This document shows positions 39,674 to 63,527 of a DNA stretch of 64,000 nt, in pieces (positions within the stretch are counted from its first letter, which is position 1; every line of letters begins with the position of its first letter). The notes under the pieces are model-generated. The model saw only the letters and a list, made by a program, of their open reading frames with translations. It did not search any database and was not told where the DNA came from. The DNA comes from Paludibacter sp. (GTDB lineage Bacteria > Bacteroidota > Bacteroidia > Bacteroidales > Paludibacteraceae): the NCBI GenBank assembly GCA_019163375.1, contig JAFLKK010000006.1, positions 1-64,000 of the forward strand. Reading direction: 5' to 3'. Position numbers and translations under genes: made by a program.

Positions 39674-39924
39674 CTTGTAAAGATAGTAGAAATTTTGATG
39701 ACAATGTACAACCGGATAGATCAATAAATAGATAATCTACAAATCCACTTATAATATACCGATTGATGTTACGAGATAGCAAATCGAATTTCAGAGTATA
39801 TGTAAATTTATTATATATTAATTTTCAATTACTTACAACAAAGCTTTTCAATATACAAGTTTCAGTTTCAGCTTTTTTTTCAAAAAAACACACCGACTCT
39901 ATTTTCAGGTTCAGAAAAAAGCAT

Positions 39925-39932
39925 TACTTTTG
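39925..39932 (+). promoter_or_regulatory. Promoter -7 box TACTTTTG of the cobalamin locus
   Basis: A full TAnnTTTG match immediately upstream of the cobalamin riboswitch. Transcription is expected to start at about 39938, at the first base of the aptamer. Confidence 0.6.
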
Positions 39933-39939
39933 CAGCGCT

Positions 39940-40230
39940 TTGGTTCACTACTTCGCCGTTCCGCGGAGAGTGATTAAAAGGGAAACAGGTGTAATTCCTG
40001 TACAGTCCCGCTGCTGTAAGCTCCTTTGATAATTGACAGTTGATAATTCACAGTTGACAGTTATTAAATTAAACGTTTTGAACAACACTTTTGCCACTGG
40101 TTTTTTCAGTGAACAGTAAACAGTAAACAGTAAACAGTCCTAAAAAAACTGATAACTGATAACTGATAACTGTCAACTGATTTCGGGAAGGCGTTCAGAA
40201 ACGGGAGTAAGTCAGAAGACCTGCCGAGCA
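39940..40230 (+). ncRNA. Cobalamin (B12) riboswitch with two expanded, complementary loops
   Basis: Conserved aptamer blocks occur in order: GGTTC (39952), ATTAAAAGGGAA-AC-AGGTGTAATTCCTGTACAGTCCCGCTGCTGTAA (39972-40019, cited by position), GCCACTGG (40093-40100), GGGAAGGCG (40185-40193) and the B12 box AGTCAGAAGACCTGCC (40210-40225). It regulates the downstream BtuB/BtuG and salvage genes by binding adenosylcobalamin. Unusually, the loop before GCCACTGG and the loop before GGGAAGGCG are filled with heptamer repeats. Positions 40051-40064 are a perfect complement of 40166-40179, so the loops can pair. A later hairpin GCAAAAG/CTTTTTGC (about 40275-40297) may be the expression platform. Confidence 0.93.
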
Positions 40231-40359
40231 TAGTTAATTTCAGAAGCTTTCGAGGAAAAAGCGACGAACACATCAGCAAAAGTCATTATCTTTTTGCCTT
40301 TGTCAGGTCATTTTCGGGAGCTATTTGAGCGGTTTATTCATCGTCAAATAGTTACAACT

Positions 40360-57602: not shown

Positions 57603-60600
57603 TTACCCAACTACCTTCTTTGTTTTTTTAGATAATACCATATACGTTACCGGAATGATAAATAATGTAAGTACTAATGAGAAGAGTAAACCTCCTACCA
57701 CCACAATCCCGAGTGATACACGGCTGGTGGCTCCTGCACCTAAGGCTAACGCGATAGGTAATGCACCAAAGATGGTGGCCAGCGAAGTCATTAAGATGGG
57801 ACGAAAACGGGCAGCCGCTGCTTCGAAAGCAGCTACTCTCCTATTCATGCCCAGTTTACGTTTCTGGTTGGCAAATTCTACAATCAGAATACCGTTTTTG
57901 GTTACGATACCAATCAACAGAATCATCCCGATTTCGGAGAAGATATTCAATGTTTGTCCAAATATCCACAACGAGAGCATAGCCCCCGCTATGGCCATTG
58001 GCACAGTAAGCATAATGATAAACGGATCGCGGAAACTCTCGAACTGCGCTGCCAGGATTAAATATATAAGCAACAATGCCAAAATAAGTGCAAAGGATAT
58101 ATTGGAATTACTCTCGGCAAAGTCGCGCGACGGTCCGGCCAGCGCGGTGGCAAACGAGGTATCCAATAACTTGGTGGATATACGCTGCATTTCCTCAATA
58201 CCTTCACCCAGCGTTTTTCCTTCGGCAAGATTGGCCGAGACGGTGGCCGATTTATATCGATTAAAGTGATACAACATGGGCGGATTACTGTTTTCTTTAA
58301 TGCTTACCAGATTATCCAATTGAATCATATTGCCGGTTTTGGAACGAACATATAAAGATGAAATGTCGCCCGGCGCACTTCTATCGGTACGAGCTACCTG
58401 ACCAATAATGTAGTATTGCATATTGTTTTGCAGGAAATATCCATAGCGGCTACCACTGTACGCCAAATTCAGCGCATCGGACACATCCTTTTCGTTTATT
58501 CCCAGACTGGTGGCTTTTTGACGATCGACCGCTATATTCAGCTCCGGTTTGTTGAATTTCAAATCCACATCCACATTGCTAAACACCGTACTATTTCCGG
58601 CTTCCTCCAAAAATTTAGGAAGAACGGTTTTCAGTTTCTCGAAGTCGAGATTTTGTAATACAAATTGTACCGGTAAACCTCTGGAACTTGATGTGGTTAT
58701 GGTTGGCTCCTGACTGGCAATGATTCGCGCATCAGGGATAGAGTCGTATCTCTTTGTCAGCTTTTGATATATCGCCTTTTGTGTCATTTTCCTTTCGTCG
58801 GGTTGCGAGAGAAAAGTGATAACAAACCCTGAGTTAGCGCTTGAGTTGAACCCACCACCAAAACGGGCAAGTGTGTACTTCGCCTGGGGCAGTTTCATAC
58901 TCATATCTGCTACGCGGGTCACCACTTTATTGGTTGTGGTATATTCTGCACCCTCGGGAGTAGTGATAGAAGTACGGATATAGCTATGGTCTTCGAGAGG
59001 CGCAAGTTCCGATTTGAGTGTTGTAACCAAACTACCGATAATAACGATACACAAACCAATGATGGAAAATGAAATCCATCGATTAAGGATAAAGAAGCTG
59101 AGGAAACGTTTATATTTTTTCTCCATTCCCAAAAAGAAAGGTTCGGAAGCTGTGTAAAACTTAGAATGGTGTGTTGCCGAACCGCCAAGAATCACATTGA
59201 GCACCGGAGTAAGTGTAAGCGATACAAGTGCAGAGATTAATACGGCACTGGCCACCACGATACCAAACTCGCGGAACAGTCGACCTGTGAATCCTTCCAG
59301 AAAGACAACCGGGATAAACACAATAGCCAATGTAAGTGAAGTAGAGATAACGGCAAAGAATATCTCGCGTGTACCTTCCACTGCCGCTTTCATCTTGTCC
59401 ATGCCCTGCTCTATCCGTTTAAAAATATTCTCGGTAACCACAATTCCATCGTCCACCACCAAGCCTGTAGCCAGCACTATACCCAGCAGCGTAAGTACAT
59501 TGATGGAATATCCGAAGATATACATGATAAAGAAGGTACCAACAAGCGAAACGGGAATATCGATAAGCGGACGTAAAGCAATGATCCAGTTACGGAAAAA
59601 CAGGAAGATAATCATTACCACCAGTGAGATGGAAATCAACAAAGTATCCAACACATCGGTAACGGATTGACGAACGAAAATAGATTTATCGCGTGCAATG
59701 TTCAGCTCCATACCTTTCGGTGCGTTGAGCTTTATCTGATCGAGGCGCTTGTAAAACTCATCGGCAATCTGAATATCGTTGGCACCCGGCAGTGGCACTA
59801 AAGCAAGCATTACGCCGGTAGTACCGTTTACCAATGCCCCCGACTCTTCGTTTTGCGCTCCGAGGATTGCCTCACCAATATCGCTGAACCGAATGATCTG
59901 ATTATCGTCCTGACGAATGATGAGGTTATTGAAATCATCCTCGGTAATAAGTCGACCACGTGTTTTCACGGTCAATTCGGTAGCATTGCCTCTGATTTTT
60001 CCACCCGGCATTTCCACATTCTCTTTGCTCAAAGCCTGCTGTACATCCGAAGCTGTGATCTTATAAGCCGACATCTTGGTGGGATTGAGCCACAAACGCA
60101 TGGCCGGCTTTTGTTGTCCGTAAATGCCTATGGAACTAACACCGGGAATGGTCTGCAATTTTTCGAGCAATACATTCTCGGCATAATCACTTAATTGAAT
60201 AGCATTCATGGCACTACTCTGCACTGCCAACATAATAATGGGTTCTCCACTTGCATCGGCTTTGGTTACCGTTGGTGGTGCATCAATATCCTGCGGTAAG
60301 CTGCGCATGGCCTGCGAAGTCTTATCACGAACGTCGTTGGCAGCTTTCTCCAGGTCGGCACCCAGTTCGAACTCTACCGTAATATTACTCGACCCAATGG
60401 CCGAACGCGAAGAAAGTGATTTCACTCCTTCGATACCGTTGAGCGATTTCTCGAGCGGCTCGGTTATCTGCGATTCTATGATTTCGGCGTTGGCACCTGT
60501 GTAGCTGGCCTGAACCGTAATAACTGGCGGATCGATGGCCGGGAACAAGCGAACACCCAGGAAATTAAACCCAACCACGCCCATTAGTATGATAATCAAA

Positions 60601-60653
60601 CTAAGTACTATGGAGCCTATGGGGCGTTTGAGGGCAATATCGGATATACTCAT
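57603..60653 (-). CDS. RND multidrug efflux permease (AcrB/HAE1 type)
   Basis: 1016 aa, 12 membrane helices with two large periplasmic loops. MSISDIALKRPIGSIVLSLIIILMGVVGF at the N-terminus, then FPAIDPPVITVQASYTGANAEIIE of the HAE1 family, GIVLATGLVVDDGIVVTENI with the proton-relay aspartates in TM4, and LLIGIVTKNGILIVEFANQKR. It exports drugs, bile salts or other amphiphiles across both membranes with the adaptor and TolC proteins. A short duplicated heptamer repeat separates it from the adaptor gene. Confidence 0.95.
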   Translation of the reverse strand: MSISDIALKRPIGSIVLSLIIILMGVVGFNFLGVRLFPAIDPPVITVQASYTGANAEIIESQITEPLEKSLNGIEGVKSLSSRSAIGSSNITVEFELGADLEKAANDVRDKTSQAMRSLPQDIDAPPTVTKADASGEPIIMLAVQSSAMNAIQLSDYAENVLLEKLQTIPGVSSIGIYGQQKPAMRLWLNPTKMSAYKITASDVQQALSKENVEMPGGKIRGNATELTVKTRGRLITEDDFNNLIIRQDDNQIIRFSDIGEAILGAQNEESGALVNGTTGVMLALVPLPGANDIQIADEFYKRLDQIKLNAPKGMELNIARDKSIFVRQSVTDVLDTLLISISLVVMIIFLFFRNWIIALRPLIDIPVSLVGTFFIMYIFGYSINVLTLLGIVLATGLVVDDGIVVTENIFKRIEQGMDKMKAAVEGTREIFFAVISTSLTLAIVFIPVVFLEGFTGRLFREFGIVVASAVLISALVSLTLTPVLNVILGGSATHHSKFYTASEPFFLGMEKKYKRFLSFFILNRWISFSIIGLCIVIIGSLVTTLKSELAPLEDHSYIRTSITTPEGAEYTTTNKVVTRVADMSMKLPQAKYTLARFGGGFNSSANSGFVITFLSQPDERKMTQKAIYQKLTKRYDSIPDARIIASQEPTITTSSSRGLPVQFVLQNLDFEKLKTVLPKFLEEAGNSTVFSNVDVDLKFNKPELNIAVDRQKATSLGINEKDVSDALNLAYSGSRYGYFLQNNMQYYIIGQVARTDRSAPGDISSLYVRSKTGNMIQLDNLVSIKENSNPPMLYHFNRYKSATVSANLAEGKTLGEGIEEMQRISTKLLDTSFATALAGPSRDFAESNSNISFALILALLLIYLILAAQFESFRDPFIIMLTVPMAIAGAMLSLWIFGQTLNIFSEIGMILLIGIVTKNGILIVEFANQKRKLGMNRRVAAFEAAAARFRPILMTSLATIFGALPIALALGAGATSRVSLGIVVVGGLLFSLVLTLFIIPVTYMVLSKKTKKVVG

Positions 60654-60738
60654 GAGTTGATAGTTGATAGTTATTAGTTGACAGTTCTTTTATTGATAAC
60701 TGATTACTGATTACTGATTACTGCTGACTGTTGACTGA
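60654..60738. repeat. Heptamer repeat block (GTTGATA/TGATTAC)
   Basis: The left side shows GTTGATA twice, GTTATTA and GTTGACA; the right side shows TGATAAC, TGATTAC three times, TGCTGAC, TGTTGAC and TGATTAC. The two sides are roughly complementary, so the block can fold. The same heptamer family fills the cobalamin riboswitch loops at 40026-40182, and a short tract occurs near 61950. Confidence 0.8.
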
Positions 60739-61800
60739 TTACTTCTTTATTGTTGCATATTGTAGTTTTCCACCTTCTTTGAGGAACAACAGGCCGGTGG
60801 TGATAACGGTATCACCGGGTTGTAATCCGTCGGTGATTTCAATGTCCGAAGCTTTACGAATGCCGGTTTGTACGGTTATGAAATGAGCTTTGCCATGACG
60901 AGCCACAATTACACTTTTGTTTTCTTCCTCGGGTATAATGGTTTGAGTAGGAATCATCAGGGCATTTTTGTTTTCGCTCAGGCGAAGTGTTACGTTGGCA
61001 AAGGATCCCGACACCAATTCGCGGGCAGAACTGTTGACAAGTGCTCTTACTTTCAGGCTACGGGTGCCCACGTTGATGCCTTGCTCGGTAGCAATTACGG
61101 TAGCATCGTATACTTTATCGTTGTTGGACATTCTGAATTTCACTTTCATGCCTGTGCTAATCACCGAACTGTATTTTTCGGGAACGCTAAAGTCGAGTTT
61201 GATTTTGTTGGCAGTGCGAATAGTAGATAGCAGGGTGGCCGGGGTAACGATGGCACCAATGCTTATGTTGCGCAACCCGATAACCCCATCAAATGGTGCG
61301 AGTACTTCGGTTTTACGAATCAGGGTTTTCTCTACTTCAATATCGGCTTTCAGCGAGTTCAGCAGCAAGCCCGTTTGGTCATAATCGTTCTGGCTTATAC
61401 CGCTGACTTTCAACAATTCGGACTGACGGTTGTAAATCTTTTGTTGAATAGCCAGTTGGGTGGTTAGTTTGTGTAGAGATGATTGTAAATCGTCGTCGAA
61501 AAGCTTCACCAACAAGGTGCCTTTCTTTACAAATTTACCTTCGGGCAAATTGATCTTTACCACGCGGCCCGCCACTTCGTTCTTCAGTTCCACTTCTTCG
61601 AAAGCCAGCAACGATCCCGAAACAGAAATTTCATTGATCAGCAGGGTTGGTTTTACAATAATGGCATCTACTTTCTTTTCCACCTTTCCTTTGTCGCCAC
61701 GTTTGTCTTTTTCATTAGACTTTGTAAAGGCGAGTTTCAGAAAGAAGGCAACTAATGCCAGCATCACTATGGCAATCCATAAGGTCGATTTCTTTTTCAT
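60739..61800 (-). CDS. RND efflux periplasmic adaptor (membrane fusion protein)
   Basis: 353 aa from the ATG at 61800 (MKKKSTLWIAIVMLALVAF, signal anchor). Barrel-sandwich lipoyl motif GRVVKINLPEGKFVKKGTLLVKLFD, an alpha-hairpin (about 105-150), the second lipoyl half VLAPFDGVIGLRNISIGAIVTPAT, and a beta-barrel with LKVRALVNSSARELVSGSFANVTL. It links the RND pump to TolC. The frame extends 11 codons upstream but the extension would precede the basic signal anchor and is unlikely. First gene of the efflux operon. Confidence 0.93.
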   Translation of the reverse strand: MKKKSTLWIAIVMLALVAFFLKLAFTKSNEKDKRGDKGKVEKKVDAIIVKPTLLINEISVSGSLLAFEEVELKNEVAGRVVKINLPEGKFVKKGTLLVKLFDDDLQSSLHKLTTQLAIQQKIYNRQSELLKVSGISQNDYDQTGLLLNSLKADIEVEKTLIRKTEVLAPFDGVIGLRNISIGAIVTPATLLSTIRTANKIKLDFSVPEKYSSVISTGMKVKFRMSNNDKVYDATVIATEQGINVGTRSLKVRALVNSSARELVSGSFANVTLRLSENKNALMIPTQTIIPEEENKSVIVARHGKAHFITVQTGIRKASDIEITDGLQPGDTVITTGLLFLKEGGKLQYATIKK

Positions 61801-61838
61801 TGAACTATTTTTGAATATGTATATTTTGACCACCCCAA

Positions 61839-61855: not shown

Positions 61856-62108
61856 CTAAAGACGAAGTTAGTTTTGTCTCTTATAAACTGAGCTATGAAT
61901 GGTGACTACTATTATAAAATAACGGTGCGCTGCACTTATTTATGCTGCTCACCGATTACTGATAACTGCTATAGACGCTTTTATAGGCAAAAGGTTTAAT
62001 GAGAACGACAAATTTAGCTATAAAATTTAAAGATATTGATTTAAACCTTTTTTTTTAGTTGAAAATTAATACGGGGAGACAACAATTATCGTATATTTTT
62101 ATTTACAA

Positions 62109-62598
62109 TATCGCATTGTGCAGTAGCTATATCGCACCATGCAGTAACTATATCGCATCATGCAGTATCTATATTGCATCATGCAGTATCTATATTGCAC
62201 TATGCAGCAACTATATCGCATCATGCAGTATCTATATCGCACTATGCAGCAACTATATCGCACAAAGCAGTATCAATATCGCACTATGCAGCAACTATAT
62301 CGCACTATGCAGTATCAATATCGCACCAATACCATCTTATATCGCATGACCGCCATCCAATATCGCACGGATACCATTCCATATCGCATGACAACCAAAC
62401 AACATCGCATCACATCCATCTCATATCGCATCACAACCAAACAATATCGCACCACATCCATCTCATATCGCATGACAACCATCCAACATCGCATCACATC
62501 CATCTCATATCGCATGACAACCAAGCAATATCGCACCACATCCAAACCGTATCGCATGACATCCAAACCATATCGCATGACAACCATCCAACATCGCA
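62109..62598. repeat. Exact-period 21-bp tandem array, 24 copies of a TATCGCA core
   Basis: Reading the cores, TATCGCA (19 copies), CATCGCA (3) and TATTGCA (2) recur every 21 bases without a single phase break from 62109 to 62592-62598. The 14 bases in between differ by half: the left half (to about 62321) has ATGCAG plus AACTA/TATCTA; the right half has CATGACAACCA/CACATCCATCTC types. Units are themselves multiples of 7. Because 21 is divisible by three, several reading frames on both strands are open, but none looks like a real protein. It is not a CRISPR: unit and spacer lengths do not fit. Confidence 0.95.
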
Positions 62599-62816
62599 AC
62601 AATCCCCAATCCCACGCACGATATGCCAGCATTGGTTATGGGGTTGAAAACCGGTAACAACTTAGATTTCTCAACCTAATTTATAGCAAATAATAAGTTC
62701 GACAAACAATCTGAATTAATTTAAAAAAAACATATCGTTAATATAGAATAATATTTTTATCTTTGGAGTCGAAAATTAAGAAACTATTATTTAAGCAGGA
62801 CATATAGCTGGGCAGT

Positions 62817-62833: not shown

Positions 62834-62900
62834 TATGCGCTGTTGTAAGATATACGTATAGATTTTGGGGTTAGGTGGCAGCTTAAAAAAGAAAGATACA

Positions 62901-63527
62901 ATGAGTGCAAGAATACTGACAAATACACCAACCTCTGGAGAATTTCCCGAATTCTACTTCGGAGAACATTTTAGAAAATCTCTATGGGTGGAATTTGTTG
63001 ACAAAAAGTACGAGAAATGGATTGGTTGTTTTGAGTGTAACTATCCAAACGTATTAAACGAAGTGCTCGTTGACAAGGATAACAAATCTGCATTTGTCGT
63101 TTCTGGTGGAATTGGATACTTAATTGACATTGAAAACAGGAAACTTAAATATAAGACTGAGGAAAATCCACTTATAGAAAGCGTTATTTTGACGACAAAC
63201 CCAGACTTTTTTATCGCGGGAACTTTTTATTGTGTTTACATTTTCGACAACGAAAAACTGATAAAAGAAGTCTTGGCAGACGATTTAGTTGATGGAATTT
63301 ACTTTAAACGTCAAGTTGACAGGAAAGCTGCTGGAGACTTAGCTTCAATTGAAAATCAATTTGAATTCAATCTTGATTTCGAACTCGACTTAGACACATT
63401 TGAACTGACAGTAGACAGGAGTGTGATTACGAAACATAATGACACCGTGAAAAAGACCAAACAAGACGAGAAAAACTCAGAAACGAAGCAAAGTATATTT
63501 AGACGACTTATAAATAAACTGAAATAA
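62901..63527 (+). CDS. Hypothetical protein in an accessory region
   Basis: 208 aa from the ATG at 62901 (MSARILTNTPTSGEF); a GTTAGGTGGC stretch and a 12-codon upstream extension precede it. No family is recognised. Composition: acidic, rich in aspartate and glutamate, with pairs of beta strands and a Lys-rich tail (TVKKTKQDEKNSETKQSIFRRLINKLK, shown here only in part). No membrane segment or signal peptide. Codon use (many GAC, GGA) differs from neighbours, and repeated 17-mers and palindromes flank it, so it was probably acquired. It could be an immunity or cassette-type protein, but that is a guess. Confidence 0.6.
   Translation: MSARILTNTPTSGEFPEFYFGEHFRKSLWVEFVDKKYEKWIGCFECNYPNVLNEVLVDKDNKSAFVVSGGIGYLIDIENRKLKYKTEENPLIESVILTTNPDFFIAGTFYCVYIFDNEKLIKEVLADDLVDGIYFKRQVDRKAAGDLASIENQFEFNLDFELDLDTFELTVDRSVITKHNDTVKKTKQDEKNSETKQSIFRRLINKLK

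Follow-up and report, generated by a model that had tools for sequence, protein, structure and literature searches.

Bacterial intergenic minisatellites (VNTRs) are tandem and non-coding, differ in copy number by whole units, and contain homogenised blocks as well as higher-order units. The direct repeats of plasmid iterons and partition sites measure ~20-22 bp and lie on one helical face, whereas REP/BIME elements, which are associated with RAYT transposases, are intergenic, repeated and dispersed within one genome. A further kind of intergenic array, built of the heptamer TAACTGA, has been described in Beggiatoaceae, Cyanobacteria and five Bacteroidetes, including Paludibacter propionicigenes WB4 (MacGregor, 2015; PMC4679880). 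Some heptamer arrays of other Bacteroidetes are missing from close relatives that have the same gene order.

Here we analyse a 64,000-nucleotide stretch of Paludibacter DNA (the window) on contig C13 of a genome of 4.66 Mb in 29 contigs (G000), which contains an array of 21-bp units. The array keeps a 21-bp register, is organised in 42-bp higher-order units, differs from its paralogues by whole units and has copies at other loci. A sequence-only reading of the window had seen in it a protein-binding array and had named an expanded minisatellite as the alternative; the alternative fits more of the data than does a dedicated binding array.

Results

The array occupies 62109-62612 and consists of 24 units of 21 bp, with the register unbroken throughout. 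It falls into two blocks, and Tandem Repeats Finder (TRF) at period 42 scores the two halves of the array at 312 and 332.

62109..62318, + strand: array block A, 10 units of 21 bp, TATCGCA then a GCAG-type spacer, in 42-bp alternation (unit sequences, Tandem Repeats Finder)
62319..62612, + strand: array block B, 14 units of 21 bp, TATCGCA then CCATC- or ACCAA-type spacers, in 42-bp alternation

The sequence-only reading had described 24 units with an exact 21-bp period and two spacer families. Cutting the array into units bears out the count and the absence of any register break, and the two families are blocks A (10 units) and B (14 units). Its start coordinate was right, but the last unit ends 14 bases beyond the 62598 that it gave. 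It had also placed TATCGCA in every unit; what recurs every 21 bp in all 24 units is ATNGCA, whereas the exact heptamer stands in 19 of 24, with TATTGCA in two and CATCGCA in three. A 28-bp two-core pattern (up to two mismatches) has 23 matches in the window, every one inside the array, against a mean of 0.5 and a maximum of 2 in 100 dinucleotide shuffles. The 21-bp unit is within the 10-100 bp of non-coding bacterial minisatellites, and its direct tandem repetition exceeds what chance would give.

The array lies between divergent genes, upstream of hlyD:

57603..60653, − strand: RND efflux pump gene, AcrB/AcrD/AcrF family (Pfam PF00873)
60739..61833, − strand: HlyD-type membrane-fusion protein gene (hlyD), left neighbour of the array (Pfam PF16576, PF13437)
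62009..62016, − strand: putative TAnnTTTG promoter-like box pointing to hlyD (consensus match)
62758..62765, + strand: putative TAnnTTTG promoter-like box pointing to the right-hand ORF (consensus match)
62865..63527, + strand: right-hand ORF of at most 220 aa, alternative ATG at 62901, without a Pfam or NCBIfam family

We take TAnnTTTG to be a promoter consensus and the two boxes that flank the array to be putative promoters. The motif occurs 8 times in 3.5 kb against 3.9 expected, and 7 of 200 shuffles reach at least 8, so that the assignment of the boxes as promoters is only suggestive. If the boxes are real, the array lies outside both transcripts. Beyond the right-hand ORF is a DUF772/DDE transposase gene that continues past the window end. 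The families identified by Pfam near the array are HlyD, RND pump, DUF772/DDE transposase, Kelch, fn3 and GH43, and two ORFs, the right-hand one included, have no family. Among named genomes, the best matches of the pump gene are in Paludibacter and other Bacteroidales MAGs. A 7-bp TTACTGA array at 60690-60743 covers the end of hlyD and the spacer between it and the pump gene.

Three further loci of the same genome carry related arrays:

C3:383116-383660: C3 paralogue, cut into 26 units of which the last is degenerate; identity to the window array 86% across 471 bp
C2 around 539651-539867: C2 paralogue, 12 units
C1:567398-567450: C1 paralogue, 2.5 copies by TRF

BLAST among the four loci with their flanks finds similarity confined to the arrays. 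The settings differ: the intergenic regions that contain the arrays are divergent in the window, tandem at C3 and convergent at C2. By Pfam, the C3 array adjoins a GH30 glycosidase and a GntR/FCD regulator; the neighbours of the C2 array are an NtrC-type response regulator and an esterase-like protein. A Pfam search of 12 proteins beside the window, C3 and C2 arrays found no Rep or Par family, left the right-hand ORF and one other protein without a family, and found no gene family common to the tested neighbours of the three arrays. The order of block A then block B is also present in the C3 paralogue. Aligned unit by unit, the window and C3 arrays form 23 pairs with four whole units unpaired, three in C3 and one in the window, and 12 of their 79 substitutions fall in the degenerate last unit pair. 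A gapped alignment of the same two arrays instead has four one-base gaps and 63 substitutions, though both stand in 21-bp register; the C2 array aligns to each of them without gaps. Whole-unit copy-number variation, a mark of minisatellites, is therefore seen among the paralogues of one genome (24, 26, 12 and ~2.5 units). At least three or four loci have the array sequence in common but not the flanks, and this array-limited similarity, together with the whole-unit differences, indicates that the arrays vary by whole units and were copied between loci. Differing periods or random length changes in related strains had been named in the sequence-only reading as counting against it, and part of this is seen: among the paralogues the lengths do differ, by whole units, but the period of the TATCGCA family is constant.

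In the stretches examined upstream of hlyD, relatives do not share the array. Among 13 relatives with the pump operon (L064 was left out of 14), L061 has an unrelated 21-bp array directly upstream of hlyD, and L051 has another ~1.5 kb upstream. Eleven of the 13 have no 21-bp array upstream of hlyD, L053 and L057 having been examined over fewer than 700 bases, and three further relatives have none in fewer than 460 bases upstream. Over these stretches, we reject conservation in place at hlyD. The search for the same 21-bp phase and core that the sequence-only reading had proposed was extended to genomes of the genus and the phylum. Four in-phase ATNGCA copies occur in 5 of 48 genus genomes (G000 included; reversed control, 4 of 48), and three ATCGCA copies in 2 of 296 phylum genomes, G000 and one whose match is a 7-bp array (reversed control, 1). 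Outside G000, the ATNGCA matches are a CGCA-n9-TGCG-type run in G061 and one match each in G015, G016 and G064, that of G016 lying in the heptad-coding stretch L148. Chance two-core matches in L023, L024, L025 and L038 were discarded; they lie inside open frames with a CxxxCxxC motif, presumably QueE genes. The array had no blastn match among phages and plasmids at E 1e-5, and one array pattern had none in viral contigs; with no relative found by either route, we reject a phage or plasmid origin.

Set against permuted columns, the TATCGCA units show a similarity to the CGCA-n9-TGCG hairpin arrays found in congeners, in a test that is biased because most of these loci were found with a pattern containing ATCGCA and to which we give no weight. 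The exact hairpin-pair pattern is present in 4 of 48 genus genomes, G000 included. Two 21-bp CGCA-n9-TGCG hairpin arrays of G000 stand between inverted AACCCTGACA repeats, at L019 3290-3625 (C3:211 kb) and L233 1255-1600 (C1:501 kb); their flanks match by eye, and they resemble a non-autonomous mobile element.

Two frames are open across the window array, over 157 and 165 codons. Long open frames through it come easily because the period is divisible by three, and a Pfam search of both gave no match. The 79 substitutions between the window array and its C3 paralogue are spread 27/25/27 across codon positions, so no frame is under visible codon constraint; the array thus accumulates substitutions without codon-position bias, as a non-coding minisatellite does. 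The earlier judgement that no frame makes a plausible protein agrees with both results, even with two frames open. Nor is a structured RNA supported, because on both strands its predicted fold is no better than that of shuffles (z = 0.04 and 0.49) and Rfam has no family there at gathering score. A 42-bp array in G016 (L148 10230-10557) has an open frame of 133 codons with the heptapeptide repeat SK-x-IA-x-x and is a possible coding counterpart with the same pitch.

Core conservation was assessed from parsimony changes per column on a tree of the units, taking the best 7-column stretch and 20,000 simulations. The best seven columns of the window array carry 4 of 53 changes (p = 0.0003). In the comparison of paralogues, the core columns (7 of 21) carry 12 of 79 substitutions (p = 0.0002). 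The same test on 11 further arrays gave no significant core in nine, while C3, which belongs to the same family (p = 0.02), and L051 (p = 0.03) point towards one. The core thus seems genuine in the family of the window and C3 arrays, without being general to the class. A 10.5-bp component of conservation is weak, with a combined p = 0.024 over 13 arrays and 0.096 for the window alone. The C2 array has TATCNCA in 11 of 12 units and TATCGCA in only four; in seven of the 11 core-keeping units, the variant is TATCTCA or TATCACA.

Periods were surveyed by ungapped autocorrelation in 1.89 Mb of genus samples (G000 864 kb, G016 320 kb, G002 100 kb, G005 124 kb, G034 100 kb, others 384 kb). The survey excluded the array of the window itself; loci chosen because of a pattern, DNA or family match (L001-L016, L023-L050, L085, L092, L095, L096, L098, L100, L101, L105-L139, L219, L220); the hlyD relatives L051-L064; the stretches around paralogues and weak matches (L017-L022); L099, dropped inadvertently, with an 8-bp array; and L177 (422 bases). 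Two stretches with a pattern match known beforehand, L102 and L148, were kept. The census contains 23 non-coding arrays of period 12-60: one each at 13, 16, 17, 20, 39 and 51 bp, five at 21, three at 22, three at 41 and six at 42. Bins of 20-22 or 40-44 bp hold 18 of the 23 (17 of 22 without L148), for which uniform periods give p ~1e-10, a value to be read with bins chosen after seeing the data and a small sample of 23 arrays. Open frames run through several of the arrays of 21 and 42 bp, and some of these arrays may encode heptapeptide repeats, as L148, which reads as SK-heptads, appears to do. When all multiples of three are dropped for this reason, 10 arrays are left, and 7 of them lie in the bins (uniform periods, p = 0.0006). 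When the samples were block-shuffled, at a slightly lower threshold, four arrays arose across all 11 groups, and the 20-22 and 40-44 bp bins stayed empty. A less strict TRF scan that tolerates gaps, run without a noise control, placed 32 of 65 non-coding genus arrays (period 12-60) in the bins, with 21 bp the commonest period (15 arrays) and six arrays at 26 bp.

Outside the genus, 440 kb held six arrays of period 12-60, three of them at 22 bp, and 250 kb of E. coli K-12 held no non-coding array. Within it, G005 is an unusually rich congener with 20 non-coding arrays in 124 kb, 16 of which have periods of 7, 9 or 11 bp; G034 has no non-coding array in 100 kb, and the other genus samples have only two in 384 kb. 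These three sets of samples speak against a genus-wide pitch rule. The single-contig genome G016 has 21-, 22-, 41- and 42-bp arrays, which argues against an assembly artefact. Array sequences mostly differ between loci, and some families recur, such as the GGGGAG family at C1:190 kb (L074) and C2:255 kb (L191). At the level of these samples, then, arrays of the genus prefer periods of ~21 or ~42 bp, equal to two or four helical turns, regardless of sequence: it is the pitch that recurs and not the sequence. A search of a limited literature collection gave nothing on bacterial satellites with a two-turn pitch.

Discussion

The array could be a functional binding array, in which a sequence-specific DNA-binding protein or a nucleoid protein would bind TATCGCA once per two turns, always from the same side, and would polymerise along the array or loop it, as in iterons, centromeres or nucleoid-protein sites. 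This proposal draws on a core that has changed less often than expected by chance both within the window array and between paralogues, on the retention of TATCNCA in 11 of 12 C2 units, on the weak 10.5-bp component, and on a location outside the two promoter-like boxes. A DNA-binding regulator lies next to the C3 array and another, of a different family, next to the C2 array (GntR/FCD and NtrC-type), and the right-hand ORF, having no known family, could encode anything. What survives of the sequence-only reading is the strict 21-bp register, the constrained core, the non-coding character and a pitch of ~two or four turns that recurs in the genus. The idea of a single dedicated binding site fares worse: no Rep or Par family is among the neighbours tested, the paralogues sit by other genes and differ in copy number by whole units, the tested neighbours of the three arrays have no gene family in common, the array is absent from the stretches examined upstream of hlyD in relatives, TATCTCA or TATCACA replaces the core in seven of 11 C2 units, and nine of 11 other arrays have no significant core. 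On balance, we regard such a binding array as rather unlikely, at something like one chance in four.

Two explanations start from the number seven. A gene for a heptapeptide-repeat protein, intact or recently decayed, would have a unit of 7 codons (21 bp) and would account for the open frames of the window array, one of which has 0 stops here and 1 stop in C3, and for the 102-codon ORF that spans the C2 array; some other 21-bp arrays (L066, L148) do look like heptapeptide coding. The even spread of the paralogue substitutions over codon positions does not support it for this array, the frames have no Pfam family, and the same pitch is found as 20, 22 and 41 bp, lengths that are unable to keep frame; a coding origin is very improbable. 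The array might instead be heptamer-based (3 x 7 bp) and akin to TAACTGA-type repeats, given the TAACTGA-like 7-bp arrays in the window (40107-40181 and 60690-60743), the frequency of 7-bp arrays in the genome samples, and slightly raised self-similarity of the TATCGCA family at lags 7 and 14 (z 1.2 to 2.0). Across 15 arrays, however, the mean z at these lags is ~ -0.1, arrays of 20, 22 and 41 bp are not multiples of 7, and fundamental periods of 28 or 35 bp are missing from the genus census (two and one in the looser scan). With a period of 21/42 and a small lag-7 signal in place of a 7-bp unit, the array is improbable as a member of that class, if less so than as a gene. By their sequence, the window's 7-bp arrays look like the TAACTGA kind and the 21-bp array does not. 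At 40026-40181, such heptamer arrays (CAGTAAA, AACTGAT) lie inside an Rfam cobalamin riboswitch match (39924-40241, + strand); they are mutually complementary by eye and may form an expanded hairpin arm of the cobalamin aptamer.

We favour, with a probability of roughly 0.6, a lineage-specific intergenic non-coding satellite whose unit is set by helical pitch, which gains and loses whole units and which is copied between loci. Such a satellite could have started when an intergenic stretch of roughly two turns was tandemly duplicated. Unequal exchange or slippage of whole units would then have made it grow, and ectopic recombination would have copied it to other loci. Helical pitch would matter because duplication or retention may be favoured if an insert does not alter how the flanks or bound proteins are phased around the helix. 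A neutral satellite would not predict the conserved core of this array, and this counts against our reading. The array may bind protein, and we conjecture that the TATCGCA core of this family may serve as a contact for a general DNA-binding or nucleoid protein.

The proposal of a pitch-set satellite can be carried further, into speculation that we hold doubtful. Paludibacter-like bacteria might keep dozens of chromosomal 'phased satellites', free in sequence and with a pitch of two or four turns, that an architectural DNA-binding protein coats or wraps on one face. If so, they would be for bacteria what satellite chromatin is elsewhere, with selection acting on periodicity and not on sequence. 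Bacterial minisatellites are usually viewed as isolated typing markers; here, mostly unrelated arrays of one genus have a common unit of ~two or four turns. This shared pitch points to a duplication mechanism that measures helical turns, or to selection on phase.

Compared with the described systems, the array has likenesses to several. It shares with plasmid iterons and partition sites the direct repeats of ~20-22 bp on one face, but it differs in having several copies on other contigs by other genes and no adjoining Rep or Par family: no Rep gene is among the adjoining families identified, where two ORFs have no family, and no ParA/ParM with ParB/ParR is among the window-side neighbours tested by Pfam (to contig position 71.3 kb). 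In a CRISPR, long identical repeats would separate unique spacers; in this array the conserved part is 7 bp and the 14-bp intervals recur within blocks. Like REP/BIME elements, the array is intergenic, repeated and dispersed; unlike them, it has a 21-bp unit that is not a clear palindrome (dyad score 0.50 vs 0.41 +- 0.04, p ~0.02, weak), and a search for Y1 transposase genes gave two, on C2 and C1, and none on the contig of the array, so that neither a palindromic unit nor an accompanying RAYT gene marks it as REP/BIME. One of those genes, a Y1 (RAYT-like) transposase gene at L219 1247-2230 (G000 C2:646.9 kb), is flanked by five exact copies of the palindrome-like GGTGCTACGCACC or its complement GGTGCGTAGCACC and looks like a REP/RAYT pair; a 42-bp array lies ~750 bp upstream of it. 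TAACTGA repeats are likewise intergenic direct repeats of Bacteroidetes, Paludibacter included, that are missing in some relatives with the same gene neighbourhood; theirs, however, is one fixed heptamer of 7 bp, whereas here the unit is 21 bp and degenerate and there are many sequence families.

The array is likewise close to VNTR minisatellites, in being tandem, non-coding and variable by whole units, with homogenised blocks and higher-order units. It departs from them in two respects: in arrays of unrelated sequence the unit lengths here cluster around two and four helical turns, and the array sequence recurs at other loci without its flanks.
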